From positions 1 to 28,904 of IMG/VR virus record IMGVR_UViG_3300001450_000030: a DNA stretch of 28,904 bases, one strand, 5' to 3'. Below the pieces are notes generated by a model, which was not told the origin of the DNA, made no database searches, and saw only the letters and a list, made by a program, of their open reading frames with translations. The stretch is from a virus. The first letter of the stretch is position 1. Every line of letters starts with the position of its first letter. This document shows positions 9,749-28,904 of this stretch, piece after piece. The position numbers were made by a program, and so were the translations under genes.

Positions 9749-9775
9749 TAAGTCATTAAAACCCTGAAAGATTCT

Positions 9776-9805
9776 GAGGCCCCTTAACGGGGGCCTCTTT
9801 TTCTT
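9776..9805 (+). terminator. Intrinsic terminator after the tail tube gene
   Basis: GAGGCCCC (9776-9783) pairs with GGGGCCTC (9790-9797), an 8-bp stem with a six-base loop TTAACG, followed by TTTTTCTT. It lies 28 bases past the tube stop and would reduce transcription into the minor tail genes. Confidence 0.92.
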
Positions 9806-9810
9806 GGTAG

Positions 9811-9822
9811 ATGTATAGTGTA
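9811..9822 (+). promoter_or_regulatory. Candidate promoter element, TATAGT
   Basis: Just after the terminator, GATGTATAGTGTAAAC contains TATAGT (9814-9819), a five-of-six match to a sigma-70 -10 box. No -35 box is visible at the proper distance, and the leader to the ATG at 9839 would be very short. It resembles the strings after the capsid terminator and before 16909, which is the main reason to list it. Confidence 0.27.
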
Positions 9823-9838
9823 AACACTGGAGAGAAGT

Positions 9839-10564: not shown

Positions 10565-10566
10565 CA

Positions 10567-11359: not shown

Positions 11360-12184
11360 ATGAACACAAATGATCTGCCAGCTCACCTGAGCGGCATGCT
11401 TGATGCAAATGCAAGAGGGCCTGCACTGCCCAGGGCAGATGACTCTCTTGCAACCAAAATCCTTGCTCACAAGGATGCTCTTAACCAGGAAATGATGGGC
11501 GAGAACTATATCGACCCTAATGACTACAAGCCAGATGTTCACGACTCCAGAGGAGATGTAAACAAGGCGAGAAAGGAAGTGGCGAGAAAGACTCAACCAG
11601 CACCGAAGAAGGTTGAGCCAAAGAAGGCTAAGTCAGTTAAGAAGGCACTCAAGCCAGCACCAAAGAGAGAGAAGAAGATGGAAGATCTAGATGCAGTCAT
11701 GAAGAAGGCAGAGCAGCACATCCAGGATGAGACTCCCGAGCAGGAGCCACAGGAGCAGAAAACTGTTGATGACTTCATCAGAGAGCGTGCTATCGCCATC
11801 CTTGCTGCACGTGGTACAGAGGACCCAGAGGCCGCTCTGGCGACACTAAAGCAGAAGCATGGATCGATCTACTTGACTCTGTTCAGCGAGGAAGAGCTGT
11901 ACATCTACACCTCTGTAAAGCGTTCTAAGTGGAAGCAGATCCAGGGCTACATTACCCAGCTTCAGGAAAACAACAGCAAGGAGGGCCGAGCTTTGGAAGA
12001 AGAGCTAACCAGAACCCTGGTTAGAAACTGCTTGGTTTATCCAGCTCTGAACAATGCTGACAAAGCTGAAGCTTTCTTTCAGAATGCACCGGCTGGAGTT
12101 ATTGACTCACTGTATACTGCAGTTCAGCAGGTGTCTTACTTCTGGACCCCACAGCAGGTTATGTCCCAGACCATTCGCATCTGA
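11360..12184 (+). CDS. Probable tail assembly chaperone, first of a pair
   Basis: A 274-residue protein with a weak AGGA site. Residues ~70-112 form a Lys/Pro/Ala-rich linker (KKVEPKKAKSVKKALKPAPK). The C-terminal helical domain (about 135-274) ends with LVRNCLVYPALNN, NAPAGVIDSLYTAVQQVSYF. The pattern 'C-hydrophobic-hydrophobic-P, then PAG-hydrophobic, then helix' is typical of tail assembly chaperones and related baseplate-assembly proteins encoded between tube and tape-measure genes. Those proteins bind the tape measure and are usually absent from mature virions. The location just before two very large tail genes fits. There is no frameshift link to the next gene, which lies in the same frame 12 bases later. 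Function is inferred from position and pattern. Confidence 0.5.
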   Translation: MNTNDLPAHLSGMLDANARGPALPRADDSLATKILAHKDALNQEMMGENYIDPNDYKPDVHDSRGDVNKARKEVARKTQPAPKKVEPKKAKSVKKALKPAPKREKKMEDLDAVMKKAEQHIQDETPEQEPQEQKTVDDFIRERAIAILAARGTEDPEAALATLKQKHGSIYLTLFSEEELYIYTSVKRSKWKQIQGYITQLQENNSKEGRALEEELTRTLVRNCLVYPALNNADKAEAFFQNAPAGVIDSLYTAVQQVSYFWTPQQVMSQTIRI

Positions 12185-12196
12185 TAGGCGGGTGTC

Positions 12197-12907
12197 ATGG
12201 ACGTTCAATCCATCCTAAAATCAGATGGAGTCTACCAAACTGAGATAGCAGGCTACACTTTTTTGTGGCGCCTGCTATCCATGCGTGAGTTTAGAATCAT
12301 CTCTGGACTTCGCGACAGTGGGCAGATTACAGAAGAAAGGGCATGCGAAGAAGCATTCAAGAGAGTCTTCTTTGGCAACTACGACATGCTCTCCTCAAAC
12401 ATGCATGCAGGAGCCAGCGTATCGATTGGTCGCACCGCTCTTTGGTTGAGCGGTGATAACCAATCCACAATCAAGGAAGACATCATTCTGGCTCGCAAGT
12501 ACCATCCAAGGTATAGCGTGTACGAGAAGATTAAAAGGATTGTACTTATTGCATACCCCGCATACAGGCCAGATGACCTAGAAGAGTGGAGTCGTGTGAA
12601 GCTTCTTGAAATGTTTGCTGCAGCTGAAGCTCTGCTAATTGAGAAGGGGTTCCCATATGAAGCCTTTGATGTCAATGACATCGGCAAGAAGGACAAGGGT
12701 CCTCCAAAGAACCAGAGGATTAGGACAGAGTCAGAGAATGCTTCGATGGAGTCTGCGTACCATGGACAGATGCAAGGGTCCACTGTTTGGGACAAGACCC
12801 CTGAGGAGCTTGGAAAAAGAGGTAAGATGGTTGGTAAGACAAGGGTGAGAAAAGAGAATCTATCTAGTCGAGATCTAGAAAGGCTAGATAGGCTCACTAA
12901 TAATTAA
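12197..12907 (+). CDS. Probable tail assembly chaperone, second of a pair
   Basis: This 236-residue protein follows the previous one by 12 bases, with AGGCGGGTG as ribosome binding site. The first ~165 residues are helical, with the segment YEKIKRIVLIAYPAYRPDDL then EEWSRVKLLEMFAAAEALLI. The pattern 'I-h-x-A-Y-P, D-x-x-x-W-S, then E-x-F-x-x-A-E-x-L-h' is shared with chaperone-like proteins found before tape measures of large myoviruses. The last ~70 residues are basic and polar (KKDKGPPKNQR, RKENLSSRDLERLDRL) and likely flexible. Compared with classic pairs made by -1 frameshifting, these two are separate genes in one frame. Role inferred; baseplate assembly protein is the main alternative. 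Confidence 0.48.
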   Translation: MDVQSILKSDGVYQTEIAGYTFLWRLLSMREFRIISGLRDSGQITEERACEEAFKRVFFGNYDMLSSNMHAGASVSIGRTALWLSGDNQSTIKEDIILARKYHPRYSVYEKIKRIVLIAYPAYRPDDLEEWSRVKLLEMFAAAEALLIEKGFPYEAFDVNDIGKKDKGPPKNQRIRTESENASMESAYHGQMQGSTVWDKTPEELGKRGKMVGKTRVRKENLSSRDLERLDRLTNN

Positions 12908-12919
12908 AGGTGCTAAGCC

Positions 12920-15900
12920 ATGGACTCTTCCGATCCATCAAACGATAGAAGCCTTCTGGCACCGGCCTTAGCAGCCGGTGTCAGTTCCATGGGCCTCATG
13001 TACGCAATGAGTACCAGAGGTGATGGCACTAGGTTCCTTGATGACATTGCAGACATGGCTACCTACTTGGGAGACAGCTCTCCTTTGGGCCTGATGCATA
13101 CCTTCCGCATTAGAGAGTTTGCTAGTCCTTTTACCTCATCTGCATATCAGATGAGACAGATTAACAAGCAAAGCGTTCCAGGTGTTAGTGCCTCCATGGT
13201 CGACGACACACTGAGCGTAATGTATGATAGTTCGTTTTTTCAGAATAAAGAAAGCATAAGCTATCTGTCTGATGTAACTGGATTGTCTACGGAAGAGCTA
13301 AAAGAAAAGGGAATTCATTCTACTTCTAGTGCGCAAGAGTTTGATATCTTGTTCAAGAGAGAGAAGAACGGAATAGGAAGCTTGCACGCTGTTCCCAAGC
13401 AAGGCGTGGACAAGAAGTCTGCTCTTTTGTCCTCCAATGTCAATTTGATGGAATACAGTGACACCAGTAGTGAGCTGTTGGACATTGGTAAGAGTACTCC
13501 AGTTAACCCTGCAGCCAAAGGCTACATGCAGGCTACTGATCAATATAGGCACGAGGGAGATCACAAGGTTGGCAGGATCTTCAAAAGAAAGATCAAGGGA
13601 CACGCTGAGGAGCTGGGGGATAAGGCTGTACACGCCTATGCACCGTATCTTCCAGTCTCTTCTATTCGGGGAGATGTAGATGACGCTGCCGGCCTGATGA
13701 GAAGAACGGGGCTGATAAGAGGCGTTGCTGCTGCATCTGTCGAAAGATTCAACAGGCTTGTTGACCAAACAGTTGGACTTATACCATCTCCAAAACTCCA
13801 GGAGATGGTCAGAGCTGCAGGAGTAGACAGAGTCAAAGAAGGGCCTGCTCTTAGACAGTACTTCATGGGATATGGCAAAAAGGCCATGAAGCTTGGAGCT
13901 ATTGGCCTAGGCGTTTCTACACTCAGTGACTTCAGAGACGACTTCGGTGGACTGGGCAACATACCCATATCAGGCATTGTTAGCGCTGGCCTGGGCATGG
14001 CGTTCAAGAAGTTTAACTTCTCAAACAAGACCTCTTTCGGAGTAGCAGCGGCCAGCTTCTTTGGACAGGTGCTGACCCCTGGAATGTCGAATGGACTAAT
14101 CTCTGGCTTTGCTGGCGCATATTCTTCACTGGATACTCTTAGAGGCAACACCCTCAACCCCTTCAACTACTATCGAAGAACGATGGAAGGGTTGCTCCCA
14201 GGTGTGTCAACCGTAGAGATGGGTGCCTTCTCCGCTGCAGCGGCAGTCACACTTGGTGCTTCTCAGTTTCGTGGGAAGACACTGCTGCAGCATGGATTGG
14301 AGAAGGTTGGATTTGCGGCAGACGATTATGTTCGACCACTGAGATCCATTGTTGAAGAAAAGTTTAATGAGAAAGCTCAAGGAAAGTTCAAGTTTGGGAT
14401 GAGGCACCTTTTCACAGATGGCGAAGACCTGTCATACGACAGGGTCCGAGACTATGTGAGAACAAGAAATGACGCTATGCGTTCGGCGAGAATTCAAAGA
14501 GAAGCTGAGTACCAAGATCTTCCTGCAGCAAAGAAGTATGAAAAAAGACTAGACCAGATTGCAAGTGAGTACCACCAGAGTGACTCCCCATTCAGGAGAG
14601 TGGAGCTGGAAGCAAGAGGGCTGTTTGAAGACGTCAGAGCGTCCATCATGGGGCTTGACCCAAAGCAGCATGTTGCACACGATGAGTTCAAGCTCAGGGG
14701 CCGGCTAGGAGCACTGGGCACACTTGGTGTCGCTGCCTTTATGGGGCAGCAACTTCTGACAGGTGGACTGCTCGGGTCAATGGAGTCCTCAGAAGAGCTC
14801 AGGGACATCTACTCAGGCGACCAGCTTGTTGAAGTCAAGAGTGGTCGGTGGTGGCTCTTTGGATCAAGAGAGTTCGGAGGTGACGAAGCCAACGTGAAGC
14901 TTCGTCACTCCAGGATTGCCCAGATCATGAATGGCACAGATGATGCTTGGGAGTGGGGTAACAGACAGGACAGTCTTGCAATCACAAAGTTCTTCCTAAA
15001 GAACTTCACATACCAACAAGAAGAAGAGCTGATGTACAGAGACCCATCTCTTGCATCTGCGTCTGCATTTGAAAACATTCCAATTGTAGGAGGCCTTCTT
15101 GCTGCCACCATTGGCAGGGTTGTAAAGCCTGAAAAGTATATAAGAGAAAATGAGTGGAACGATCCTGACTTCCCATCTTACTCTGCACTGGGTGATCCAA
15201 TTAGCGCAAACAGCTTTGGCACTAGAGCAGCTAATATGTATCAGCAGTTTACTGACATGATTGGTATGTGGGGTTGGGCCGCAAACACAGTTTCAAAGGC
15301 TACAATTGGTGACCAAAACTTTGAGTCAAGAAGACCTCATCTTGACACTATTGGTTACAGAACATCAATGACTGCATCTTTCTGGGATTCAGAGATTGGT
15401 GACCCAGGAACAACTGAAGCAGTTCGACGTGTCCTGATGAGAAGAAGCTCAGAGTACGAGACATTCAACCCTCTTCCGAACGACCAGCCCAGTTGGATGC
15501 CTATGAAGCTACGCATGGGTTCTCCAACTGCAAAGGCCGGTGGCCTAGCCAGATCCCTGCTTCCTGGCCCCTCAATGGAGAACATTTACCCAGAGCTGGC
15601 AGGAGTCCATCCTGAAGACTACCCGATGATTCACAGGATGAGAGTTCTATCTGCCCTTGCTCCAGAGACAAGAGAGTTTAGAGAGACGCAGAAAGCTGTA
15701 TATGAGATGGCCAAGAATGGTGCATACAAAGAAGAAGAGCTTAAACAGATTGAGCAGATGTCTCAAGATGCAGGCAGAACCCTTAGGGGCTATGTCAATG
15801 AAAAGGTAAACCCCAGAGCTATTGAAGTCCCCCTGATGAGCAGTCTGACCCAAGCAGCTTGGCAGACAGGTTGGGCTGCAGCCAGAAGTGCCGCTGCCCC

Positions 15901-16837
15901 AGCGGAGTACTTGGTCCCATTTGGTTTCAGGCCCTTCCAGAAGTTCACTGGATTCATGAGAGACCCCATTGAGCAGTACAAGTATGAAAATGTTTATGGC
16001 TCCCCGACTGGAGACTGGCAGGCTCCATGGAATGACTGGTTCAGACCAGCCTTCCTGACAGCTGGTTCATTGCTTCCAGGCGAGTTCACTCCTTCTTACA
16101 GGAAGAAGATTCACGATACAAACGAATACTTCGACAAGTTGGAGTTCTACAAGTACGCTTCGTTGGCTTTAGAAGCAGAGAAGATGGGAGGCAATGCAAA
16201 CGATCTGTATAGGCGCGCAGCTGAAACTCGATATGGAATCAATCCATATGGATCGACAATGGGTGTGTACTGGTCTCTGCCCATCGAGCAGAGAAAGTAC
16301 ATGCACTCATTCCTTGAGGCAGGAGAAAAAGAAAGGTCTCAGATTCTGAAGATCCTTCCAGAAGACCATAAGCATCTCTACAAGGCAATGTGGCAAAGGC
16401 TCGACTCTGGGGAAGACATGGAGCTGTTTGGTGGCAGTCGCTCTCGGGACGTTGACCCCAGATATATCCGACAGAGATTCTATGAGCTTCTTAACTACTT
16501 TGAAGAGAACCCCCTGCCTCCTCCAGACTTTATTGGCTGGGACCAAGGAGTCCAGATGGACGATATTCGAGTCCTCTTTATTAACGAAGAGGCCTCGAAT
16601 ATGCACAACTACAATGTGTGGGAGAAGCAGGTCCGATATGCAAGGGCAGAGCCCATGGCTGTCATGGCAGCACAGCAGCTTTCTGACATCACAGCAGGGG
16701 ATGCATACAGGGCTGCAAGTCGCACAGGAATGGATATCTCAGTTACACCAACAGGTGGAAGAACTGGTAGCGCAAACTTGGAGCTTGGTGACACAAGAGA
16801 AGATGGGATAACAAGTACCCTGCAACGCTTCTTGTAG
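12920..16837 (+). CDS. Giant tail protein in tape-measure position, with multiple hydrophobic segments
   Basis: A 1305-residue protein starting 7 bases after AAAGGTG. It has no recognisable enzyme motif. The N-terminus (residues 11-31, SLLAPALAAGVSSMGLMYAM) is hydrophobic. More small-residue-rich hydrophobic stretches lie at about 323-337 (MKLGAIGLGVSTL), 353-366, 373-400, 435-450 (GAFSAAAAVTLGASQF) and 596-620 (LGALGTLGVAAFMGQQLLTG). The second half is polar and aromatic, with a conspicuous SGRWWLFGS at 641-649 and helical runs such as EYFDKLEFYKYASLALEAEK. Following the two chaperone-like genes, this is where a tape measure is expected, and hydrophobic segments are common in tape measures that enter the host membrane. 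The rather globular second half is unusual for a pure tape measure, so an injected cargo protein is equally possible. Confidence 0.6.
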   Translation: MDSSDPSNDRSLLAPALAAGVSSMGLMYAMSTRGDGTRFLDDIADMATYLGDSSPLGLMHTFRIREFASPFTSSAYQMRQINKQSVPGVSASMVDDTLSVMYDSSFFQNKESISYLSDVTGLSTEELKEKGIHSTSSAQEFDILFKREKNGIGSLHAVPKQGVDKKSALLSSNVNLMEYSDTSSELLDIGKSTPVNPAAKGYMQATDQYRHEGDHKVGRIFKRKIKGHAEELGDKAVHAYAPYLPVSSIRGDVDDAAGLMRRTGLIRGVAAASVERFNRLVDQTVGLIPSPKLQEMVRAAGVDRVKEGPALRQYFMGYGKKAMKLGAIGLGVSTLSDFRDDFGGLGNIPISGIVSAGLGMAFKKFNFSNKTSFGVAAASFFGQVLTPGMSNGLISGFAGAYSSLDTLRGNTLNPFNYYRRTMEGLLPGVSTVEMGAFSAAAAVTLGASQFRGKTLLQHGLEKVGFAADDYVRPLRSIVEEKFNEKAQGKFKFGMRHLFTDGEDLSYDRVRDYVRTRNDAMRSARIQREAEYQDLPAAKKYEKRLDQIASEYHQSDSPFRRVELEARGLFEDVRASIMGLDPKQHVAHDEFKLRGRLGALGTLGVAAFMGQQLLTGGLLGSMESSEELRDIYSGDQLVEVKSGRWWLFGSREFGGDEANVKLRHSRIAQIMNGTDDAWEWGNRQDSLAITKFFLKNFTYQQEEELMYRDPSLASASAFENIPIVGGLLAATIGRVVKPEKYIRENEWNDPDFPSYSALGDPISANSFGTRAANMYQQFTDMIGMWGWAANTVSKATIGDQNFESRRPHLDTIGYRTSMTASFWDSEIGDPGTTEAVRRVLMRRSSEYETFNPLPNDQPSWMPMKLRMGSPTAKAGGLARSLLPGPSMENIYPELAGVHPEDYPMIHRMRVLSALAPETREFRETQKAVYEMAKNGAYKEEELKQIEQMSQDAGRTLRGYVNEKVNPRAIEVPLMSSLTQAAWQTGWAAARSAAAPAEYLVPFGFRPFQKFTGFMRDPIEQYKYENVYGSPTGDWQAPWNDWFRPAFLTAGSLLPGEFTPSYRKKIHDTNEYFDKLEFYKYASLALEAEKMGGNANDLYRRAAETRYGINPYGSTMGVYWSLPIEQRKYMHSFLEAGEKERSQILKILPEDHKHLYKAMWQRLDSGEDMELFGGSRSRDVDPRYIRQRFYELLNYFEENPLPPPDFIGWDQGVQMDDIRVLFINEEASNMHNYNVWEKQVRYARAEPMAVMAAQQLSDITAGDAYRAASRTGMDISVTPTGGRTGSANLELGDTREDGITSTLQRFL

Positions 16838-16849
16838 TCTTTCTAGCAC

Positions 16850-16866
16850 ACTTGGTGTAAGATGAT
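16850..16866 (+). promoter_or_regulatory. Candidate promoter element before the putative polymerase gene
   Basis: The 71-base gap between the two giant genes is AT-richer than its surroundings and reads CTTGGTGTAAGATGATTTG. GGTGTAAGATG resembles GGGTATAAGATG found after the capsid terminator. No terminator hairpin is visible in this gap; ACACTTGGTGT could form only a 4-bp stem. It may be a promoter or simply a leader. Confidence 0.25.
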
Positions 16867-16908
16867 TTGTAAAACGATTCTAGACACAACAGAGGCTTCG
16901 TAAACACT

Positions 16909-19900
16909 ATGGCACAGCCCCCCGATAATGATTCTGTTTTCAAAGATGTATTTGGCTTGTCAGTGGCAGCATCGCCGCTGCTGATTGGTGGCCTGTATGG
17001 CTACGGACAAGTGGTGTCCAACAGGTCGTCAGCCAATGCGCTTGATGCTGCTGTTGCTGTCGCTTCTGGCGAGTCCCCCAATGTGGCCCTGTCTGCCCAG
17101 AGCGGAAGGCTTGGAAGACTGGGCAGAGATGTTGGATCGGATGTAAGGAGGCAGGCCGAAGCAGTTGCGGAAAGACAAGTAAAAAGAAATGACCAACTCA
17201 TAACCGAGCTAACTGACGCTATCACAAGCGAAGAAAAACTATCACAGATGCTAGACCAGCAGGGTGCTGTGTTCCAGGCATTGTCTTCTACGATTGAGGA
17301 CCCCAACTCTGGCATGTCTGACGTCGTCAAGAAGCAAATGGGTTCCATTCTCGAAGACGCAATGAGATTGGAAAGCAATCCTGATGAGGTCAAAAAGGTT
17401 CTTGCTGGTGCTATCAGAACCATCATGGAAGGGGGAGAAAACAGAGATGGCCAAATTGCTTTCTCTCGACACCTGAAAGAGTATAGGAAGATAGGAAAGC
17501 ATCTTAGCGTTCCCAAAACTGGAAGAAGCTTATCAGGTGCGTTCCCCCCTCCATCTCCCGCTCTTGCTTCAAGCGCACGAGGGAGGGATCTTAGATCGGG
17601 CCTCAGCAAGGCGGGAGTGTCGAGGCTTGAGGCTATTCAGAAAGCAGTTCAAGGACAAGGCACTGTTGGCCTTGTCAGAAAGGGTGGTGTTACTACAGCA
17701 CAGATTAGAAGCAACAGGGGCGGTGGCTCTTTCGGCTCTGGTGCTTTTGTCACGAATGTTTCCTTGACAGACATCGAGTTTGGAAAACACAGGGTTTATA
17801 TGGGTGAGCAGCTGCAGACCCCCTATGTCGCCCCAAAGGGAATGATTAGCGAGAAGGATGCTTCTCAGGCTGTGGCAATGATGAGAAGAGGAAACACACA
17901 AGGAGCTCAAGCTTTTGTCGCAAGCTCAAGAGTAAACTTTGCAGATTTTCAAACAAGAAGATTTCTTACTGAGCTGGAAGAAGCTGGAAGCTTATTTGGA
18001 TTGGGGCGAAGAAAGAATGCTTTCAATGCGTCACTAACAGAAGTTATGCTTGTCGGTGACAGAAGCAGAGACAGTGTTACGAACACACAAGGAGCACCAG
18101 GAATTACCCAATTCGAAAGAGAGAAGATGAGCCATCTTAAGGTATTTGGATTGGAGAACATTCAAGACAAAGAAGCACAGATGGCCCTGATCAAGGGCAT
18201 GAGTGTCATGCCTGGGTATGATCCAGGTGTTAGCCCAGATGCAATCCAGACAACAATTAAAGACCCCATTCTTGCAGGAGGCAAGAGAGTGTACACCAGC
18301 GTAATGTATGCCCAGGGCGGAACTCTTGATCAAATGATGTCTGGGAGGGTAGGAGGGCATACAAGAAAAAGCCTGCCTATTACTGCTCGCGAAAGGCAGT
18401 TCTTTGGTAGAAGCCAGTTCTTTACTGTTAAGAAGAAAGACGGACGCATGGGAAAAAGCGGAAGAGGCGCTGGGTTCAGGTCTGGTGAAGGAAGGATTAA
18501 CAAAGCTGTCATTATGGACGTAAGACCAAAAGAGGTAATAGGAAGCCTTGCTAGTGTGACATCTGAAACAGGTGGAACTGTTTTTACAACCAGAAAGTTT
18601 ACCAGCACAAAGCTGTCAACCATACCAGTGCTAGACCCCAATGTCCACAAGAGTGCTATTAGTCCAATCTTGCAAAGGGTTTTAGATGAGGGCATGGGCG
18701 GTGAGACTGTTACGTTCACCCCAGCAGAGCTAGCAGAGCATGGAAGAGTTCTTGGTATGAGCAAGTCTGGTGTCAGACGCCTTACCCAAGAGGCGTCTGC
18801 TGCAAGTGGAGATGTGAGGATCAAGATTGCTGGATACTCAAGTGCATATGGACAGCATCTGATCAACCTTGCTATCGAGACAGACCAAACAGCTGGCACA
18901 GGAGTTAAGCTGTTCGGGCCTTTGGCCAAGGGTATCACTGACGAGATTGGCGAAGCCGAGGCAATAAAGCTGGTAGGGGGAGGCGGTGACCTAGCCAGCC
19001 TTGTCAGGGAAGGAGCATTGGTCACGGAAGGTTCAATGCTGAAGAAAAGCGCCGCCTTTATGGAACACCAGTTTCTTACAGGTGCTGCATACTTCTCAGT
19101 CTCAGAAGATCCAGATAGGTCAGTAGGCCGGATTCACAGTGTCTTTGGTGAAGCCAAGAATGTTATTAGCGATATTCTTAAAACAGAAAAAGGAATGACA
19201 GAAACAGAAGCTTTGTTCAGGTTTTCTCTTCGGAAGATGAGGGATGCTGGGGTCACCCCCCAAAGAGTTGGTCTTGTAGCTGGTGGCATGATGGCGCATG
19301 GTGAAAAGCTTTTGAGCGCCAACATGACTGTCAACCAGATTATTGAAAAGGAGTTTGGAAAAGACAAAGCAATGAAAATTATCGAAGAAGCAAAAAAAGG
19401 CTTTACTTTTGGTATTAGCGGTTTTGCAAAGGGAGAGGGCGCTGAGACTTTCGTCAACGCCCGAGGTTCAGTAGAGCGCAGAACCTTTGAGCAACTGCAG
19501 CACCAGCTAAGACTTAACCCAGATATGAGTGAAGACCAGATCTCAAAGATTCTGTCTGGAATCTACAGAAGAAAGGTTGGCGCTGCCGAGCACTTGGTTC
19601 TTGCTGAGTCAATGACTGCAATGGTCGGTTCCATGAAAGGCAAGGATTTTATAACTGAAGAAGCTGCAGAGAAGATGCAAAGGATTGGACTGGCAGAGTT
19701 GATCTCTAACAGAATGGCGAAGGGTGAGAAATTGGTTGACGTCTTAAAGGAGTCAGACAGTGGAACCATTCTGGATCTGTCTGATGTTGATGAGATGGTT
19801 CAGGGGGGCCGGAAAGCCGAAGAGTTCAAGTCTCTGGCAGCGGAGCTCAGAAAGAAGTTTGGTGGAACTGGAGAGATCTTTCTTCCAGGTGCAGATGCTT

Positions 19901-22164
19901 TTAAAGCAGTCAGAGAGGTCTCTATAAAGACAGACAAGGGTGCACGGATTGTTGATGCACCATTCAACAGAATGGTCAATGAGCTTGGCGCTAGCATGTT
20001 TGAGAGTGCCGGAACAGGTAGCAGTATCATGCCAGCACTTGACAAGTACGAATCAGAAGCCATTGACATGTACTCCAATGTCAGATCAAGAGTTCTGAGT
20101 GGCAAGATCAAGGGATCAGGCACTCATACGGCTGTAATGATCGACCCCTATTCTGGGGTCGGACTGACAGACAATCAGCAAAAGAGTGCCATGAAGGCTA
20201 TGAGGGCCTCAGGTGGGATGGGAATCTTTATGGACTCCAATGCCTTCCTGTCTCAGATGGCAAACTTCAGCAACTCTGATGGAGCCCTTAGTGACATAGA
20301 GCCTCATGGAAATGTTAACAAGTTTGTTGATAGAAAAATAAGCAAGTTCGGAAAGGTAATAAACCGATCTGACGATGTCACTCCTGAAGGCAGGATGATG
20401 AGAAGGTTCTTCACAGGCCTGGAAACAGAAAATGCTCAAGCCACTGTAGGGTTAGCTACAAGACACCCTATTCTTGCTCAGGGTAATGTGCAGATGACTA
20501 GTATCTTTAGGAGTGTCAAAGAAGTTGGAGGCTCGACAGAAGATATTGCCTTTAACATGTTTAAGCAAACAAAAAGCGGCAAAAGAGCAATTGCAAGGCT
20601 CAAAAGAAGAACAGGTTCCACAGTCAACAGCTTTGGAGCCATTGCCAATCTCATGGGCGAAGGTGGTAATCACAGAAAGGCTGTAGATGCTTTCTTTACT
20701 TCAATGCACAGAAACCTTGGAGAATGGTTTAGTAATGAAGGTGGAGGAGTTGTCTACCAGCCTGTAAGAGAGTTGGACGTGCATGCTAATGGTCAAAGGA
20801 ACAAGTATAGGATCGACTTTGGTGTTGCTGCCCAAGCCTTTGGTGATTTCGATGGTGATGCTTGGTCTGTTGTTCTCTTTTCAGAAGACGTACTCAAGTC
20901 AAAGAACGCTGGTGGCAAATCTGCAATGAACGTGCTTAAGGATTCTAGAGACCCAACCAGCCAGTACATGAAGAGACTGAACAGATACCAGACTACATTT
21001 GCAGTGTTTGGTGCAGAGGCAAAAGATGCACTCGAAATGATGGGAGGCAAATATGGCAAGACAGAAGATCTGGACAAGAGGATTGTTCAAGACCTGATGA
21101 AAGAGCATGCAGCTAAAACAGAAGTTGGAATGGTTGATGTAAACCTTTCCAAGATCAGAAGATCAATTCTCAATATGTCTGACCTGAGTACTGATGCTGC
21201 AACAGAAGCACTTGCTCTTTTGCAGGTGACTCAAGAGCATGCGGTAATTAAGGGAAAGAAGCTTCCAGTGTTCCTGCCTTTTGCAGCAGAAATGGTGGAA
21301 GCGTCGAGGGAACTGTTTGCAGGGAACGACAAGATGTTTAGAAGCTTTATGGAGAAAAGGATTTTTGGAGGCAGCGCATTTGACGATGGTGGGGTTGTTA
21401 AGATTACTGGAGCTGGCGATGATCCAGCTGAGGCGATCTCAAAGAATCTTAACAAAAAGCTTACCGATGGAACTGTGGATCAGCACACAGTCGATCTCAG
21501 GAGAGCCATAGACACTGTTGTCGCTGCAGTCACCCAGAGCAGACTCGACCCTCAAATCGAGGCTGCTTCTGCAGGCACTCTTGCAGCCATGCTGAAGAGA
21601 GACATAGATGACCCAGCCCTAAAAGAGCTAATGCTTGCAGAGAATGATGCAATTGGTGGAATGCTAGGAGGGGCTTCCAAGGGCTCAAGGATTTCTGTTG
21701 CAGACGCTCTAAACCTATCGTCAGATCAGTTGGCAAGAAGTGCCAAGCTCAACATGAAGGCGATGCTTGTTCCGACTGCAATAGGTTTGGTTGGCACACT
21801 CCTTGTTGGTGGAGTGATGAGCAGAGTCGGCTCGGCCCCCGGAGGAGGGGCCTCTGCCGAAGACTTGGCTCTAAGAGAGCAGCAAGCTGGTGGCTCTATG
21901 TTCAACCCACGTCCGAATCCAGAGCAGGCTCAGAAGTATGACAAGTCTCAAAGTGGTGGAGTTAGCAACAACCCACACCACATGAAGAGAGTTAAGACTA
22001 GGCAGAATTTCAATGTCAATGGTAAGCTGGGTGACAGTAGCCAGATAGGCCCTACAGCTGCAGCAATGTCTAGCATGCCAAACATGTCCGGTGGCATTAG
22101 GGTGTATGATGACAGACAGCCCATTACAGGCTCGTATGTAGAAAGAATGCTTGGTCTTGACTGA
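16909..22164 (+). CDS. Giant tail protein with RNA polymerase-like DFDGD domain (putative virion RNA polymerase)
   Basis: A 1751-residue protein. The ATG has only a weak, distant GAGG upstream, but no better start is in frame. Residues 15-36 are hydrophobic, ~65-170 are helical/coiled-coil-like, and 1618-1638 (AMLVPTAIGLVGTLLVGG) look membrane-active. Residues 1305-1322 contain AAQAFGDFDGDAWSVV. D1313, D1315 and D1317 match the metal-binding aspartates of the beta-prime catalytic loop (AAFNADFDGD in bacterial RNA polymerase; DLDGD in RDR/QDE-1). Upstream, TRHPILAQGNVQ (R1185, P1187) resembles R-x-P of beta-prime and NPCLHPGDVR of RDRs. Downstream, EVGMVDVN (1405-1412) and LQVTQEHAVIKGK (to 1450) parallel LG-I-NAH and LA-L-S-AVD--KTG of RDRs. 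GKIKG and KSAMK (1065-1096) may be the first barrel's lysines. I infer a single-chain two-barrel RNA polymerase fused into a tail protein; activity is unproven. Confidence 0.65.
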   Translation: MAQPPDNDSVFKDVFGLSVAASPLLIGGLYGYGQVVSNRSSANALDAAVAVASGESPNVALSAQSGRLGRLGRDVGSDVRRQAEAVAERQVKRNDQLITELTDAITSEEKLSQMLDQQGAVFQALSSTIEDPNSGMSDVVKKQMGSILEDAMRLESNPDEVKKVLAGAIRTIMEGGENRDGQIAFSRHLKEYRKIGKHLSVPKTGRSLSGAFPPPSPALASSARGRDLRSGLSKAGVSRLEAIQKAVQGQGTVGLVRKGGVTTAQIRSNRGGGSFGSGAFVTNVSLTDIEFGKHRVYMGEQLQTPYVAPKGMISEKDASQAVAMMRRGNTQGAQAFVASSRVNFADFQTRRFLTELEEAGSLFGLGRRKNAFNASLTEVMLVGDRSRDSVTNTQGAPGITQFEREKMSHLKVFGLENIQDKEAQMALIKGMSVMPGYDPGVSPDAIQTTIKDPILAGGKRVYTSVMYAQGGTLDQMMSGRVGGHTRKSLPITARERQFFGRSQFFTVKKKDGRMGKSGRGAGFRSGEGRINKAVIMDVRPKEVIGSLASVTSETGGTVFTTRKFTSTKLSTIPVLDPNVHKSAISPILQRVLDEGMGGETVTFTPAELAEHGRVLGMSKSGVRRLTQEASAASGDVRIKIAGYSSAYGQHLINLAIETDQTAGTGVKLFGPLAKGITDEIGEAEAIKLVGGGGDLASLVREGALVTEGSMLKKSAAFMEHQFLTGAAYFSVSEDPDRSVGRIHSVFGEAKNVISDILKTEKGMTETEALFRFSLRKMRDAGVTPQRVGLVAGGMMAHGEKLLSANMTVNQIIEKEFGKDKAMKIIEEAKKGFTFGISGFAKGEGAETFVNARGSVERRTFEQLQHQLRLNPDMSEDQISKILSGIYRRKVGAAEHLVLAESMTAMVGSMKGKDFITEEAAEKMQRIGLAELISNRMAKGEKLVDVLKESDSGTILDLSDVDEMVQGGRKAEEFKSLAAELRKKFGGTGEIFLPGADAFKAVREVSIKTDKGARIVDAPFNRMVNELGASMFESAGTGSSIMPALDKYESEAIDMYSNVRSRVLSGKIKGSGTHTAVMIDPYSGVGLTDNQQKSAMKAMRASGGMGIFMDSNAFLSQMANFSNSDGALSDIEPHGNVNKFVDRKISKFGKVINRSDDVTPEGRMMRRFFTGLETENAQATVGLATRHPILAQGNVQMTSIFRSVKEVGGSTEDIAFNMFKQTKSGKRAIARLKRRTGSTVNSFGAIANLMGEGGNHRKAVDAFFTSMHRNLGEWFSNEGGGVVYQPVRELDVHANGQRNKYRIDFGVAAQAFGDFDGDAWSVVLFSEDVLKSKNAGGKSAMNVLKDSRDPTSQYMKRLNRYQTTFAVFGAEAKDALEMMGGKYGKTEDLDKRIVQDLMKEHAAKTEVGMVDVNLSKIRRSILNMSDLSTDAATEALALLQVTQEHAVIKGKKLPVFLPFAAEMVEASRELFAGNDKMFRSFMEKRIFGGSAFDDGGVVKITGAGDDPAEAISKNLNKKLTDGTVDQHTVDLRRAIDTVVAAVTQSRLDPQIEAASAGTLAAMLKRDIDDPALKELMLAENDAIGGMLGGASKGSRISVADALNLSSDQLARSAKLNMKAMLVPTAIGLVGTLLVGGVMSRVGSAPGGGASAEDLALREQQAGGSMFNPRPNPEQAQKYDKSQSGGVSNNPHHMKRVKTRQNFNVNGKLGDSSQIGPTAAAMSSMPNMSGGIRVYDDRQPITGSYVERMLGLD

Positions 22165-22172
22165 GGTAGATA

Positions 22173-25100
22173 ATGCCAAACAACTATACTGACAGTGAAA
22201 AAGTATTCGTTATCAATGACGTAAGTCTAAAGATTGCACCAACAATGATCCAGCTCAACGAGCAAGATCTAACATACTCTTGGAAAACACTAAGAACAAA
22301 GTCGACAACGAAGATGGCATCTGGTCACACCAAGAAGGTGATCCACGTCCAGATCCCTTTTAAGAGCGAAATGATGCTTGATCTCCACAGGCTACTCGTG
22401 GAGTTCAGGCACTCTCCTTTTATGTTCATCGAGAACAGATACCTCAGAGAGGTTTTGTGTCCAGAATGGGGACCGAACAATAATCAGAAAATGGCCTTTA
22501 CACTGCGTAATGCAAATGTGCAACCAGCTGCAGGCCTTACTGATGTATGGATTCTCGACCTTCAGCTGTCTTGGTTTAACTACTTTCCATACACAAACAA
22601 CTGGCTCTACAGAGAAGACTGGTGTACCAATTGGCAGTTCTCTCAGAAAGAGGGAGAAGTCGGTCCAGGTTACAAGTACTCCATTGGTTGGACATACGAC
22701 GAGAACGGAAAGAAAGTAAACAGGCCCAGTTTGATTGACTACAACATAAATGCTGGCACCCAGAATGGAGTCCTGCCCTGGTCTGCTGTCCAGAAGGATT
22801 ATGAAAGCCTAGACAAGAAGACCATCATCGACATGGAAAGGATGCATCAGGGAGAAGTCTTTGACCTTCTACCCTTGCCCTCAAACATGTCTCCTGCAAA
22901 GTTTGTAAACAAGCCGTCTGACTCCAGAATCTATGTTCGTTATATCAACCTTCTTCAAAGAGATGCTTTGAAAAGGAACTTCAACATTGATTGCGAAGCA
23001 GATATTGTTGCACAAGATGGGTTCGACTACTTCTTTGCAGCAGCAAAAACTGCAGAAGGAAAGCTTACTACGCTCTCCCTCCATGAAGGAGGAGAGCTGC
23101 CCTGGTACGCTGGTCTGAAGAGCTCTTGGATATCTAAGATGCTTTATGAATCAGATGGGAATCTTTACAGCGAAGGGGTTGGTGGTGCTGACCAGCTTTC
23201 TTTTGCAGCATCCAAGGGAATCGAAGATAGAGACTTTGTCAGATCTATTAGAACAAGAAAGCCTGAAGTCGCCTCTGGAGTGAGGTTCTCATTCGAGAAG
23301 TATGCAAGTGTTCGCTACCCAGACAGCTGGGTTGAGAACCAGTATGTTCAAAGAAAGTCAGTACTCAGCAAGATTGAACTTGGTGCAATGAAGGACATGC
23401 TTCACGATAGATACTCAAAACATGATTCGAAAGTGGAGAATGCAGCTCTCATTGCTCAAATGCTCAATGAAAAAGGGGCAAGCGGAATGATGATTATTGC
23501 TGCGATTGTTAACTCTGTTGCAGAATCTGGTCTGGATCATGAAGCTGTCAATCAGAGCCCCCATCCAGATGGCGACCCTAATAGGTCTTCAGAGGGCCGA
23601 AGAAAATCTAATCACAATGCATACAACGTTGGGTATCCAAACGATCCAAGACCAGACAAGCCAAACTGGGCTGTCTCTGCTGGTCTTTTTCAGATTAATG
23701 ACTCTTCAGCAGCATGGGGCAACAAGGCTGGTACTGTAAAGCAAAGATGGGATCCTGTATTTAGCATTAACACGATTCAGTTAGACGAGGGCTGGCCACT
23801 ATTTGAGGCTGTAGCGAACGCAACAGGCGACTACAAGATTGCTGTAGCCGCATTTTGTCAGTTCGTAGAAAGACCACAGCACACAAATGATGCAAGCATT
23901 TATAAAGATTTGGAAGATTTAAGTACAAATACTCAGCAGAATAAAATAAACTTTCTGCTGATGAAGATCAACAAAAACGATCTTAACCTAACAGAGTTTG
24001 GCAAGCATGCCCAGACTAGAGCAAGAGGTGCGAAGGGAGTCTTTCCTGACATTGAGTCATATATTGATGGAAAATACAACAACAAGCCCAGCAATTCGAC
24101 ATCGCCTTCAACTCTTTCGAATAAAGGCACTGCGTCGACTGATGCAACAGAAGAGGAGCAAGAGGCAGCAAGGCTTGTAACGGAGAAAAAGCAGAAGAAA
24201 GTCCAAGAGCAAATGGCAGATTTTATGTCACAGATGCATGTTGACGGCTGGAGATACTACACAGAAAACTCCTATGTCACCAATGTTTGGTACAAGTACG
24301 AAGACATTTCTCTCACCCTTTCAAATAGCGAGTATTCGAATGGAGAGGTTGGGCAGTTGTTCAACCAACACAGTGCTGTTGTCACACATGTGTCAGCTGG
24401 ACTCAGACATGTTGTTGCTGACATTCCCATCATCGGGCAGAACACACCGACCCACCAGTTTCTGGGGTCGGTGCAGCCGTACTACGAGATGGAAATCACC
24501 TACAAGGATGGAGACTCTCCCTTGGGCGTGGGAGACAGGGAGGGCCTGCCCTTGGAGGCCAGAGAGATTAACAGTATGAAGAACATCTTGCAGAACAGCG
24601 CAAGGAACTTCAGACAGATTCCAGACTCTTGGTGCGCATCGGTAGACTGTTTCATAACTAGACTTTTTGGAAGCTATGAGTACGACGACCTATCTTTGCT
24701 AGAGTCAAAGTCCAATGCAGGTGGTGGTGTCAACCTCTTGGACTGGGAGATGACCAAGAGGATGGCATTCACAGGAAGTGCTCATGCGACTCTGCCTGGA
24801 CACCCTGGTGTGTCTACTGTCAAGCTGACGATGGAAGAGACCTCGCCCTACATCGAGGGCGAGACCCTGACGCCTACATCAGTTGCTGCAGATGGGCTTG
24901 ATGCGGCCAGATCAGAGGTCCTCAATGCAGTTTACAACTGGGGGCTAGACAAGTACGATCCGACTTTGACATCGCTCTATCTTGCTCAGCATGCAGGGTC
25001 CACCGATGATGAGCTGCTTGATCTTGGTTCGATGACCAACACTACGAGACCAGATGAGGAGAACTTTGGCAAGTTCGTACTGGATGACATCTTGTACCAT

Positions 25101-28100
25101 CCAAGTGAGACTGCACTGTTTGTTCCCAATGATGACTCGATTGCAAGCGCTCTGAATGCCCTTGGTGCAAACATGGGAGAGCCTGCAAGCAATGTTGGTG
25201 CGGGTGTTGGTGCAAACATGGGAGAGCCTGCAAGCAATGTTGGTGCGGGTGTTGGTGCAAATGGACAGCCAATTATATTTGCCAATAGTGACTATTACGA
25301 TGGCTACACTCAAGTAAGACTAGAAGACGATCAGAAGTACTTAGACTTTTCCCAAAGCAGTGTAACCTCTGGCGGTCATGTGTCTGGAGACATTAGCCAG
25401 CTGTTGGAAGAGAATCCAGATCTTGGAGACATTCCAATCAAGAAGCTTTTGGACTATAGGTTTGGACTTCATGGTCTGGTGGATAATGTCAGCTTGATGA
25501 TCGCAGAAGACCATCAAGCTGGTGGTGTAGACTTGTATAAGGATATTCAAGATCATAAACCAATCTATGGAGAGGCCCTGCCTCGCAAAGCTGTAGTTGA
25601 AGCGCTATACGGGCTCCCTGTCGAGCCTTCAATGTGGAGAGCATTTGCTTTGTACACGAGTACATATGCAGCACTTACATACAGAGGCAATACTGACACT
25701 TACACGATTTCCCCAAATAATGGTGCAGCACAAAGAGTAACGGGAAGTGTTGACTACTTTAAGGATCTTGAAGATGAATCGAAGTACCCGCCTGTTTTTG
25801 ATGAGGCTATTAGAACTCTTTCAAACAAGTACAAGAGATATGCAATAGACGCAGCATATCATGCTGACGATATTAACTCAAACCGTGACCCACTGCAGGG
25901 GCTGGGTAAAAAGCTCTGGGGAAGTATTGCGGGAGGAGCTGACAGAATTTTTAGTTCCATCATATCCGCATTCTCGGGAACCACTTCAGTCTCAGACCAC
26001 GATGATGCTGTGCATTATGACACCATGAAAAACATGGCAGACATCTATCTTGAAAAGATGCCTGCGAGAGTTCGCGTTAATGAGTTCCTGAAATTCTATG
26101 GATACGAACAGCTTCTTAGTGGCCTGTTTGCCGGTGGCTCTGATGAGGGAGATCTGAGTTCTCAAACTGGATACTTTGTACAGTCTCTTGACACATCTGC
26201 AGCCTGGGGGTGGGATGCTTCTCAGTCGTATGCAGTCTACAGAGGACCTTTCAACTGGCAGCTTTCTAAGGGAAAAGACGGTTTATTTGCCGGGGAGAAT
26301 GCGGTCATACAAGGAGTGGTAGAGACTGTTGCAGCCCCTCTTTTTGCGCTTGATAGCTCTCTTCCTGCAAGTTTGAATTTGTTCTCAGACCGAACTCTTG
26401 GAGAGTTTGTCCTGAATCCTATTACGTCGATAGACGATGTTCTGTACAATGATGGCTCTGATAGATTTTCGGTGGGAGATGGACTTCTACACGAGAGCGA
26501 TAATTATGCTTCTGTTCTTTATGAAGTCTCTCGGGAGCATGAAGCTTCCAAGGTTAAGTACTTCAAAAGCGCCTTTACCAACATGGCAGATGACCTTCTT
26601 AGAGATGTGGCTCTTCTTGAGTATCTTGGGCTGGGACACCTTGTTGGCTCTTTGAGCGAAGTGCAACCAAGAGGAGACCAAGCCTACCCTGACATGGAGC
26701 TTCCACATCACCCTTACTACGGTGATGTGTATTCTGTCAGCCCAGACTTCTACATGTGGAACATTTACCAAGATGGTGGCGTCGGAGCTGTAGATATCAA
26801 GGGAGAGATTGCAGCTTCTATCGATGTGATTGTAGACAGGTCATACTCTGCAAGCAGGAGGCTTGCGTCTGGTGGTACGACCAATACAGCAAGAAAGGTT
26901 TACGAGGAAGACTCACTTGCCAGACCAAATGTAAAGATTGGAAGTGAAGGAAAGGATGGAGTAGACATTCCCTTCGCCAGACCATCAGACAAGCCAGATG
27001 CTGTTGTGGAGTTTGAAGAAAGGTGGCAGACTGAGACAGGGGTCGACATAAGCCCCAACCAGCCGCTTGTTCAAACTGGATCTGCCCCCGTTAACTTTGT
27101 GCTTGATGTTCCGTTTACTGGACCAACAGTTAGTAACACTGTTTTCCCAGATAACCAAGCTGGAGCATTCGGTCAGGCTCTTCCATCAACTGTAATTCCA
27201 AGATTGTCTTGGGCAGAATCAGAAGCCCTCAGCAATCAGATGGCAACTCTTCTTGAAGAAAAGAGAGACATGTTTGGTTCGAGAGCAGGCTTTCTTGGAG
27301 AGCAAAACTCAGCTGCGTCTGGCAATGCTCAGGTCAAGGAAGCGGCAAAAGGAACCCAATTTGAAAGGCCTACTGCAAGCCACCTGTTTGACAGAGCAAG
27401 CCTGAGAAAGATGGCAGATGGTGCTGCCAATACAATGCTAACTCACAAGTACAGAGTGGCAAGAGCATATCCAACTTACAAGCTGTTCTTTGTTGAGGAG
27501 GATGAACTCACAGATCGATTCATTAACTATGATGACTTTTATTCTTATGCTGCAGTTAAAGACTTCTACTACGAAGAAGACAAGATGAGCCCAGTCCAGA
27601 CTGCAATCATCACTCTTCAGAACATCTCTGGAATTCTTGATGGGACAAAGAGAAATGCGGTAACAGACATTGACCATCTCAGTAAGTCAAAGAAAGCACA
27701 GAAGCAAAGTGATATTGACCTTCGCTCCATGGGCACCAGTCATGAAGAATTGTATTCAGAAGCAAATACTACAGACTATGAAAGCCAGGATGGGGTCCAA
27801 AGCTTTGGTGCCCTTGCGCTGAGAACAGGGCTCAATGTCCAGCTCCGTGTCGGCTATTCAAACGATCCCAGCGACCTTCACGTCCTCCTGAGTGGACGTG
27901 TTGTCGCAGTGCAGTGGAACAAGCAAGGAGACCTTGCAGAGATAACTGTGCAGTCTTTTGGTGCTGAGTTGGTTCAGGAGACAAAGGGTTGGCAGGAAGA
28001 TGGACAGGTCCCAAGCTACCCCACAACTCACCACCTTCTTGCATCCATGATTATGGAGCCTGAAGTCGTTCACTTTGGAAGATGGGAGATCGGACAGCTG

Positions 28101-28904
28101 TATCAGCCAGGAGAGTCCAAGGATGTTTCTTTTGACTTTACTGACTACTCCAACGAGGGTGCTCTTGCACATCTGACTGCACTAAACTCTGCTACTAAGT
28201 GGATGGCTAATCATCCCGGCCTTATGGCTGTTGGCATGATAGGCATAAGCGCATTCAGTTTAACTCCAGCCGGTGGAAGCATTGGAAGACTTCTTGGAAA
28301 GGCCCCCCTTGGCATCGGAAAGCTTGTCAGCTTTCTTGGCCGCTCACTGAATATTGTTCCTGGAAGAATGGGAGTGAACTCTTTCAAGAGGGTTCTGCCC
28401 AAGCAGGCTCTTTCGAGACCTGTTAGCGCCATAGAAGGTACGAACGGGAAGACCCTAATTGGTCAAGCGTTTGCTCGTGCAAGCGACAAAATTAGAGAAA
28501 GGCTTACGAGAGCAGGACTTGATAAAAAATTGATTGACGAAGTTTTTAATGTTGGCAAAGTTACTGCTTTCAAAGTAGATGATGCTGGTGAATTCATATT
28601 AGTAAACGGAGCGAAGGTTGTAAAAATAGGGTCTGAGTATGCAGCAGAAGCAGCAGCTATGAATGCGAAAATTGCCACCAGGGCCGCAAGAGCTCTCTGG
28701 CTTGGAAGGGCAGAGCCAGTATTCGGAGGCGTTGCATCAGGAGGAGTAGCAGGACTGAAATCACTGTTCAGCGTGTCAAATGCATGGAGTGGTGGCAAGG
28801 GTGCTGCTCGCTTCTTGTTCGATTTTGGTAGCAGTTACACTGGCACCTTTCTTAGAGTTGCTGCAGTTGGCTTTGGCGCAAGCGCGGCAACAATCGTGGC
28901 AAAG
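22173..28904 (+). CDS. Giant baseplate/tail-tip protein with tail lysozyme and hub-like domains (3' end outside window)
   Basis: The frame is open from ATG 22173 (GAGGT site 5 bases before) to the right edge, at least 2244 residues. Residues 1-160 look like a baseplate domain (FVINDVSLKIAPTMIQL, HSPFMFIENRYLRE), and a related-looking segment follows at ~690-810 (VADIPIIGQ, THQFLGSVQPYYEMEI). Residues ~425-585 form a lysozyme-like domain of the phage tail type: VAESGLDHEAV with likely catalytic E451, SAGLFQIND with Q507, and VERPQ with E566-R567-P568. A perfect 15-residue tandem duplication spans 998-1030. Residues ~1865-1990 resemble a tail hub (LRTGLNVQLRVGYSNDPSD, LLSGRVVAVQW). The last ~230 residues contain Gly/Ala-rich hydrophobic stretches at 2014-2040 and 2226-2244. 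I infer a tail-tip protein that cuts peptidoglycan and anchors the hub. Confidence 0.75.
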   Translation, partial: MPNNYTDSEKVFVINDVSLKIAPTMIQLNEQDLTYSWKTLRTKSTTKMASGHTKKVIHVQIPFKSEMMLDLHRLLVEFRHSPFMFIENRYLREVLCPEWGPNNNQKMAFTLRNANVQPAAGLTDVWILDLQLSWFNYFPYTNNWLYREDWCTNWQFSQKEGEVGPGYKYSIGWTYDENGKKVNRPSLIDYNINAGTQNGVLPWSAVQKDYESLDKKTIIDMERMHQGEVFDLLPLPSNMSPAKFVNKPSDSRIYVRYINLLQRDALKRNFNIDCEADIVAQDGFDYFFAAAKTAEGKLTTLSLHEGGELPWYAGLKSSWISKMLYESDGNLYSEGVGGADQLSFAASKGIEDRDFVRSIRTRKPEVASGVRFSFEKYASVRYPDSWVENQYVQRKSVLSKIELGAMKDMLHDRYSKHDSKVENAALIAQMLNEKGASGMMIIAAIVNSVAESGLDHEAVNQSPHPDGDPNRSSEGRRKSNHNAYNVGYPNDPRPDKPNWAVSAGLFQINDSSAAWGNKAGTVKQRWDPVFSINTIQLDEGWPLFEAVANATGDYKIAVAAFCQFVERPQHTNDASIYKDLEDLSTNTQQNKINFLLMKINKNDLNLTEFGKHAQTRARGAKGVFPDIESYIDGKYNNKPSNSTSPSTLSNKGTASTDATEEEQEAARLVTEKKQKKVQEQMADFMSQMHVDGWRYYTENSYVTNVWYKYEDISLTLSNSEYSNGEVGQLFNQHSAVVTHVSAGLRHVVADIPIIGQNTPTHQFLGSVQPYYEMEITYKDGDSPLGVGDREGLPLEAREINSMKNILQNSARNFRQIPDSWCASVDCFITRLFGSYEYDDLSLLESKSNAGGGVNLLDWEMTKRMAFTGSAHATLPGHPGVSTVKLTMEETSPYIEGETLTPTSVAADGLDAARSEVLNAVYNWGLDKYDPTLTSLYLAQHAGSTDDELLDLGSMTNTTRPDEENFGKFVLDDILYHPSETALFVPNDDSIASALNALGANMGEPASNVGAGVGANMGEPASNVGAGVGANGQPIIFANSDYYDGYTQVRLEDDQKYLDFSQSSVTSGGHVSGDISQLLEENPDLGDIPIKKLLDYRFGLHGLVDNVSLMIAEDHQAGGVDLYKDIQDHKPIYGEALPRKAVVEALYGLPVEPSMWRAFALYTSTYAALTYRGNTDTYTISPNNGAAQRVTGSVDYFKDLEDESKYPPVFDEAIRTLSNKYKRYAIDAAYHADDINSNRDPLQGLGKKLWGSIAGGADRIFSSIISAFSGTTSVSDHDDAVHYDTMKNMADIYLEKMPARVRVNEFLKFYGYEQLLSGLFAGGSDEGDLSSQTGYFVQSLDTSAAWGWDASQSYAVYRGPFNWQLSKGKDGLFAGENAVIQGVVETVAAPLFALDSSLPASLNLFSDRTLGEFVLNPITSIDDVLYNDGSDRFSVGDGLLHESDNYASVLYEVSREHEASKVKYFKSAFTNMADDLLRDVALLEYLGLGHLVGSLSEVQPRGDQAYPDMELPHHPYYGDVYSVSPDFYMWNIYQDGGVGAVDIKGEIAASIDVIVDRSYSASRRLASGGTTNTARKVYEEDSLARPNVKIGSEGKDGVDIPFARPSDKPDAVVEFEERWQTETGVDISPNQPLVQTGSAPVNFVLDVPFTGPTVSNTVFPDNQAGAFGQALPSTVIPRLSWAESEALSNQMATLLEEKRDMFGSRAGFLGEQNSAASGNAQVKEAAKGTQFERPTASHLFDRASLRKMADGAANTMLTHKYRVARAYPTYKLFFVEEDELTDRFINYDDFYSYAAVKDFYYEEDKMSPVQTAIITLQNISGILDGTKRNAVTDIDHLSKSKKAQKQSDIDLRSMGTSHEELYSEANTTDYESQDGVQSFGALALRTGLNVQLRVGYSNDPSDLHVLLSGRVVAVQWNKQGDLAEITVQSFGAELVQETKGWQEDGQVPSYPTTHHLLASMIMEPEVVHFGRWEIGQLYQPGESKDVSFDFTDYSNEGALAHLTALNSATKWMANHPGLMAVGMIGISAFSLTPAGGSIGRLLGKAPLGIGKLVSFLGRSLNIVPGRMGVNSFKRVLPKQALSRPVSAIEGTNGKTLIGQAFARASDKIRERLTRAGLDKKLIDEVFNVGKVTAFKVDDAGEFILVNGAKVVKIGSEYAAEAAAMNAKIATRAARALWLGRAEPVFGGVASGGVAGLKSLFSVSNAWSGGKGAARFLFDFGSSYTGTFLRVAAVGFGASAATIVAK
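25164..25261 (+). repeat. Perfect 45-bp tandem duplication inside the giant tail-tip gene
   Basis: Two identical in-frame 45-bp copies (25164-25208 and 25209-25253) are followed by 8 matching bases of a third. Each encodes GANMGEPASNVGAGV. Identity at every base, synonymous sites included, suggests a recent duplication, or one maintained by slippage, in a flexible linker. Confidence 0.97.

Follow-up and report, generated by a model that had tools for sequence, protein, structure and literature searches.

Three giant genes in a contractile-tail locus

We analysed a window of 28,904 nt, bases 1-28904 of the 68,562-nt virus record IMGVR_UViG_3300001450_000030. We observed head and tail genes that lead into three giant open reading frames, here called G1, G2 and G3, whose coordinates and sizes (1305, 1751 and at least 2244 aa) are exactly those of the original prediction.

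1766..3085, plus strand, major capsid protein (439 aa; phrog_3922, E 1.6e-14)
6753..9098, plus strand, tail sheath (781 aa; phrog_16991, E 3.4e-19)
9116..11343, plus strand, three tube-like proteins (210, 241 and 258 aa; phrog_9206)
11360..12907, plus strand, two genes in a split tail chaperonin slot (274 and 236 aa; assigned by position only)
12920..16837, plus strand, G1 (ORF, 1305 aa), unassigned virion protein, possible tape measure
16909..22164, plus strand, G2 (ORF, 1751 aa), tail-locus protein in the orf146 position, putative single-chain two-barrel RNA polymerase
22173..28904, plus strand, G3 (first 2244 of 2959 aa), putative baseplate hub with a lysozyme-like domain, orf147 position

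The G3 frame is open at the window end. Extending the contig downstream, as had been proposed, completed it at 2959 aa in the parent record; 3' of the giants lie small genes, then a Baseplate_J protein (E 8.5e-16) and tail proteins. Other head genes besides the capsid gene lie upstream of the giants, and the opposite strand of the record carries a DnaE-type DNA polymerase, a primase, a thymidylate synthase and other genes. Together, the sheath and Baseplate_J genes bear out the predicted contractile tail. Identical copies of G1 and G2 are present on a second contig (L009, L005), and an assembly artefact is therefore unlikely for these two genes. The small-residue-rich hydrophobic segments that had been attributed to all three proteins do occur in each, but they are few: a hydropathy scan returned aa 12-30 in G1, 14-32 and 1619-1637 in G2, and 2016-2034, 2225-2243 and 2840-2858 in G3.

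G1 and G3 are homologous to proteins of Acinetobacter phage ME3, Moorella phage MTATph1 and Bacillus phage KLEB27-3, all of which have the order chaperonin slot, G1, G2, G3. The chaperonin slot is annotated as tail chaperonin in ME3 and in plasmid relatives, and the slot of the tube-like proteins as tail tube in KLEB27-3. ME3 has been described as distantly related to Bacillus phage 0305phi8-36 (PMC5000817). The account of 0305phi8-36 (orf143-147) and of the BtI1 element describes an arrangement like that of the window, with sheath, tube, two chaperonins, orf145, orf146 and a hub with wall-degrading domains (PMC2147016). Matched by position, G1, G2 and G3 correspond to orf145, orf146 and orf147; for G1 the correspondence was also reached via ME3_35. 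Membership of this lineage was judged by structural gene order, which is conserved, and by hub and tail genes, which are homologous, and on these grounds the virus is placed among the myoviruses related to Bacillus phage 0305phi8-36.

Scans with G1 found some 20 further loci, IMG/VR loci included, most of them with the same three giants. About 20 divergent phages and Bacillus/Paenibacillus phage-plasmids have their giants in the G1-G2-G3 order. The suggested comparison with other myoviruses thus returned the same three-giant order in relatives whose G2 bears a DxDxD motif. Homologues of G1 also lie on 190-240 kb plasmids of Bacillus, Paenibacillus, Cytobacillus and Cetobacterium. The hosts are Bacillus licheniformis, B. 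velezensis, B. halotolerans, Paenibacillus, Cytobacillus and Cetobacterium (L040-L044, L046), and since these plasmids carry the tail module in whole or in part, they appear to be large phage-plasmids belonging to the 0305phi8-36 lineage. Among the plasmids examined, those of Bacillus, Paenibacillus and Cytobacillus have a G2 after G1. The Cetobacterium plasmid (L044 14101-20598) has type I restriction-modification genes directly after G1, in the expected place of G2, and the giant gene 3' of G1 on Cetobacterium plasmid p3 was rejected as a G2 because it is not a homologue. G1 is read or annotated as three consecutive ORFs in L022/L023 (4019-11251) and L008 (12826-19979), so this giant can be split. 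By eye, staphylococcal-nuclease-like segments were seen in G1 and at the start of G3 in L013 and L008.

Two segments stand out in G3.

23436..23888, plus strand, lysozyme-like domain (aa 422-572; Phage_lysozyme2, E 0.0034, below the Pfam cut-off)
27444..27986, plus strand, conserved hub segment (aa 1758-1938; phrog_20474, labelled endolysin, E 5.1e-29)

The lysozyme expected among the giants is represented by the first of these, through a sub-threshold match. G3 also matches the ME3 baseplate hub protein, and by homology we assign it as a baseplate hub of the 0305phi8-36 type with a lysozyme-like domain.

Conserved motifs of G2 and their match to RNA polymerases

The following motifs were located in the C-terminal two thirds of G2.

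18886..18948, plus strand, candidate second-barrel lysine pair (aa 660-680; K667 and K674)
20098..20148, plus strand, SG motif (aa 1064-1080), at the position of beta-prime DYSGRSVI
20461..20469, plus strand, RxP motif, RHP (aa 1185-1187; compare beta-prime NRAPT)
20845..20859, plus strand, metal-binding DxDxD signature, DFDGD (aa 1313-1317)
21247..21261, plus strand, IKGKK, a conserved [I/L][S/K]xK[K/H] motif (aa 1447-1451)

In an alignment of 16 divergent G2 sequences with a mean identity of 21%, the invariant columns were K667, R1185, D1313, D1315, D1317, P1689 and D1734. All three aspartates of DxDxD are thus conserved in 16/16 sequences, and the proline of RxP is nearly invariant. K667 is followed 7-8 residues further on by K or R, a K-x6/7-[K/R] spacing; the basic pair of E. 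coli beta is K-x7-K. In single-chain enzymes, too, such a pair precedes DxDxD. The SG segment is the start of the profile match to beta-prime. At about 20% identity, the lysine pair, RxP and DxDxD are nearly the sole conserved columns of the family, and DxDxD occupies the equivalent place in G2 of each relative that retains the polymerase region. The clade of the window G2 has ~85 extra residues between RxP and DxDxD. An IS-x-K-[K/H] motif lies ~130 residues C-terminal to DxDxD in nearly all G2 proteins. Residues K667, R1185, D1313, D1315 and D1317 fit the signature of a two-barrel RNA polymerase, with the motifs in the right order; the lysine pair marks a candidate second barrel, its identity deduced from two conserved basic residues. 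The polymerase that had been suspected among the giants would be G2, the protein that carries this signature.

By itself DxDxD says little, as about one third of shuffled proteins of G2 make-up contain one. Among 22 scanned proteins, however, 21 had the motif (shuffled mean 7.4, maximum 16), and 20 had RxP upstream of it (shuffled mean 1.4, maximum 6). Both frequencies are far beyond chance. G1 proteins put through the same test showed no motif excess over shuffled sequences.

Database searches with the relatives pointed the same way. Pfam RNA_pol_Rpb1_2 matched their G2 proteins at sub-threshold values (E 0.0043, 0.015 and 0.09), in register with the beta-prime NRAPT...NADFDGD stretch, and when run against whole phage genomes it had G2 as its sole match (E 7e-5, 4e-4). 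PHROGs returned an RNA polymerase subunit (E 8.4e-4). A 12-sequence profile of the G2 segment was compared with all PDB sequences (best E 6.4e-4); the best 60 matches listed were RNA polymerase largest subunits, phiKZ and phage beta-prime chains of the phiKZ/AR9 group among them. We dropped the idea that DFDGD marks a DNA polymerase, since the sequence around it aligns as in RNA polymerase beta-prime.

The window proteins themselves are more remote. Direct PHROGs, Pfam and NCBIfam scans of G1 and G2 gave no match, nor did tblastn of G2 against 50,697 phages or BLASTP of G2 against its L013 counterpart, for which profile methods were needed. Because direct searches fail, the case for the window G2 rests on its membership of the family. 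In hhalign, its clade matched the other clade at 92% (E 6.4e-7) over 607 columns that span DxDxD and the C-terminus, and the reversed-profile control scored 0%. L033 is an intermediate, matching the window clade at 97% (E 6e-11); the other-clade profile finds it independently (E 1.7e-5) as the sole match in its 151-kb record. Profile comparison thus places the window G2 in the family and links it, through intermediates, to a putative RNA polymerase ancestry. Comparisons of G2 profiles with P23-45 gp96 and the phi14:2 polymerase by hhalign were not significant, with DxDxD in register in some of them.

AlphaFold2 gave poor models (pLDDT 50 for each) both for residues 560-1751 of the window G2 and for the equivalent part of L016 G2. 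Foldseek with the poor L016 model had beta-prime as its top PDB match (probability 0.99, E 0.021), and with the window model it found no polymerase. What VIA-align matched in the L016 model was for the most part a helical hairpin of a common type; chains of yeast Pol I and of the chloroplast polymerase scored Z 6.4-7.3, within the noise described by the tool. Against viral models, the best Foldseek match of L016 G2 was an unnamed protein (E 2e-30). The second (E 1.8e-6) was BFVD A0A8S5SD80, labelled a Siphoviridae 'minor tail protein' and possibly a further tail-locus polymerase.

These data also bear on whether the locus holds just ordinary tape measure and hub genes, with DFDGD as a chance match. 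The frequency of DxDxD in shuffled proteins and the lack of a database match for the window G2 would suit that idea, but the motif is invariant family-wide, PDB, Pfam, PHROG and Foldseek results agree, and the profile link has a clean reversed control. Chance is already disfavoured and, in our judgement, highly improbable.

Modular build of G2 and its place in the tail

Two further segments lie at the C-terminal end of G2.

21763..21819, plus strand, hydrophobic segment (aa 1619-1637; hydropathy 1.97)
21982..22161, plus strand, C-terminal tail, conserved family-wide, even where the polymerase part is missing

At the other end, the N-terminus of the relatives' G2 matched a DNA polymerase exonuclease subunit in PHROGs (E 9.9e-8). 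A DEDD-type exonuclease domain was seen in the same protein in L016 (aa 269-398), in the N-terminal part of L008 and L013 G2, and in L007 (aa 851-1073); it was not seen in the window G2. In MTATph1 G2 the exonuclease (98.6%, E 9e-16) and the C-terminal tail (93%) are still present and the polymerase part is missing, while L024 G2 keeps the C-terminal tail alone (38%). Between its two retained parts, the G2 region of MTATph1 is interrupted by a transposase/ATP-binding pair resembling an IS21-family element (L007 24529-26780). Since these two relatives do without the polymerase part, it is not essential to the structural role of the gene, and since the tail is kept where the polymerase part is lost, the tail looks like a fixed structural anchor. 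We infer that polymerase and exonuclease look like an exchangeable payload on G2.

G2 might alternatively descend from a polymerase and now be a catalytically dead structural or membrane-pore protein. Its extreme sequence divergence and the two relatives without the polymerase part are compatible with such a history. However, the putative catalytic residues are the best conserved while the rest stands at ~20% identity, the opposite of what loss of catalysis predicts, and we consider this fate improbable.

The giants lie between the chaperonin-like genes and the baseplate genes, which is the classical tape-measure/hub position. A tape measure is expected between tail chaperonins and hub, and both G1 and G2 lie there; the tape measure may be G1, the direct neighbour of the chaperonin-like genes, or G2. 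If it were G2, one chain would set tail length and carry the polymerase, a fusion as in Thermus phage P23-45, which is a precedent. In the same position, 0305phi8-36 orf146 is called a tape measure, mainly from a tail-length correlation (PMC2147016). Yet the polymerase-like core of G2 fills most of the C-terminal two thirds and leaves ~560 residues for an extended tape, the chaperonin-like genes adjoin G1 rather than G2, and in MTATph1 both G1 and G2 are still long although the polymerase part is missing. We regard a fusion of this kind as rather unlikely, though the least so of the alternatives.

The original prediction had likened the three giants to the cargo module of crAss-like phages, in which case all three would be ejected together. 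Cellulophaga phage phi14:2, a crAss-like phage, has three giant virion proteins, one of which is a two-barrel polymerase in a single chain, as proposed for G2, and three adjacent giants with hydrophobic segments, one of them polymerase-like, are also what the window has. Crass-like phages are short-tailed, and the gene neighbourhood of phi14:2 differs from that of the window. In a homology comparison that covered phi14:2 gp76 and gp78 only, no homology to G2 profiles was detectable. Moreover, G3 is homologous to a baseplate hub (PMC2147016), and the order of the genes is the classical one of chaperonin, tape measure and hub. The polymerase-like giant stands from that prediction; joint ejection of all three as an equivalent module seems to us hardly probable.

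A putative virion RNA polymerase and its proposed delivery

We conclude that G2 is probably a virion RNA polymerase, a single two-barrel chain encoded in the tape-measure/hub cluster of 0305phi8-36-lineage tails. This reading draws on gene order, catalytic-type residues and the homology of the relatives. Hints of a virion location come from the KLEB27-3 record, which labels its G2 a structural protein, and from 0305phi8-36, for which the genes adjoining the chaperonin genes are described as virion structure genes (PMC2147016).

A close parallel is P23-45 gp96, a DFDGD-bearing polymerase in a giant tail-locus protein (PMC10770324), as is proposed for G2. P23-45 is a siphovirus with the polymerase N-terminal in a 5002-aa tape (PMC10770324), whereas in the G2 family, with proteins of 1500-2450 aa from contractile-tail phages, it would occupy the C-terminal two thirds. 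The tape-fused enzyme of P23-45 transcribes pre-early genes, and a separate, non-virion polymerase then takes over (PMC10770324). Five relatives likewise have separate polymerases of the YonO/RdRP type in their records. Such enzymes (PF05183) resemble G2 in being single chains with DxDxD, but in these relatives their genes lie outside the tail cluster. By analogy with P23-45, G2 would be the ejected virion enzyme and the separate polymerase the second. 0305phi8-36 also has a separate RdRP-type polymerase, orf99, according to the available part of its account, which describes orf146 as a tape measure only and notes no polymerase in it, in contrast to the signature in G2 (PMC2147016). Phages of the phiKZ/AR9 group are contractile-tailed and inject a polymerase, as proposed here, but theirs is split over several subunits rather than contained in one tail-locus chain (PMC7598289). 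A multisubunit virion polymerase of the phiKZ type does not fit the window, where a single chain of 1751 aa contains both sets of motifs.

We propose the following model, which covers virion location, ejection, activity and promoter use. The catalytic core, a lysine-bearing barrel followed by a barrel with SG...RxP...DxDxD, would make up the C-terminal two thirds of G2, and the hydrophobic segment and conserved tail at its end would probably hold it in place within the tail or against the hub. As the tail grows, the two chaperonin-like proteins may help G1 and G2 to enter it. Upon infection, the sheath would contract, the G3 hub/lysozyme would open the cell wall, and G1 and G2 would come out of the tube before the DNA does. 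G2 would then reach the membrane or cytoplasm and transcribe the first phage genes.

The predicted novelty of the arrangement holds in part. Injection of a polymerase by contractile-tail phages is known from the phiKZ group, but a single-chain polymerase in the G2 position of such a lineage appears to be new; our literature search, mainly of open-access papers without supplements, found no report of a polymerase in an orf146-type protein.

Going by the signature in G2, virions of this lineage seem to be equipped with a transcription enzyme of their own, which would enter the cell along with the DNA. In the fullest form of this reading, which we hold to be about evenly balanced between right and wrong, contractile-tail phages and phage-plasmids of an ancient and widespread lineage have an exchangeable payload on the tail-anchored protein long classed as their tape measure. 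This payload would be a single-chain RNA polymerase of the cellular type, in some members joined to a DNA-polymerase-type exonuclease domain, and it would be injected to start transcription without the host enzyme. If so, transcription of the first genes should be resistant to rifampicin, and the tape-measure assignment of the 0305phi8-36 lineage would need revision. The origin of cellular RNA polymerases could be traced with the help of about 20 new divergent two-barrel polymerases. The incorporation of a polymerase into a tail protein, known from one group of Thermus siphophages, would be a general strategy that extends to contractile-tail phages and large Bacillus phage-plasmids.
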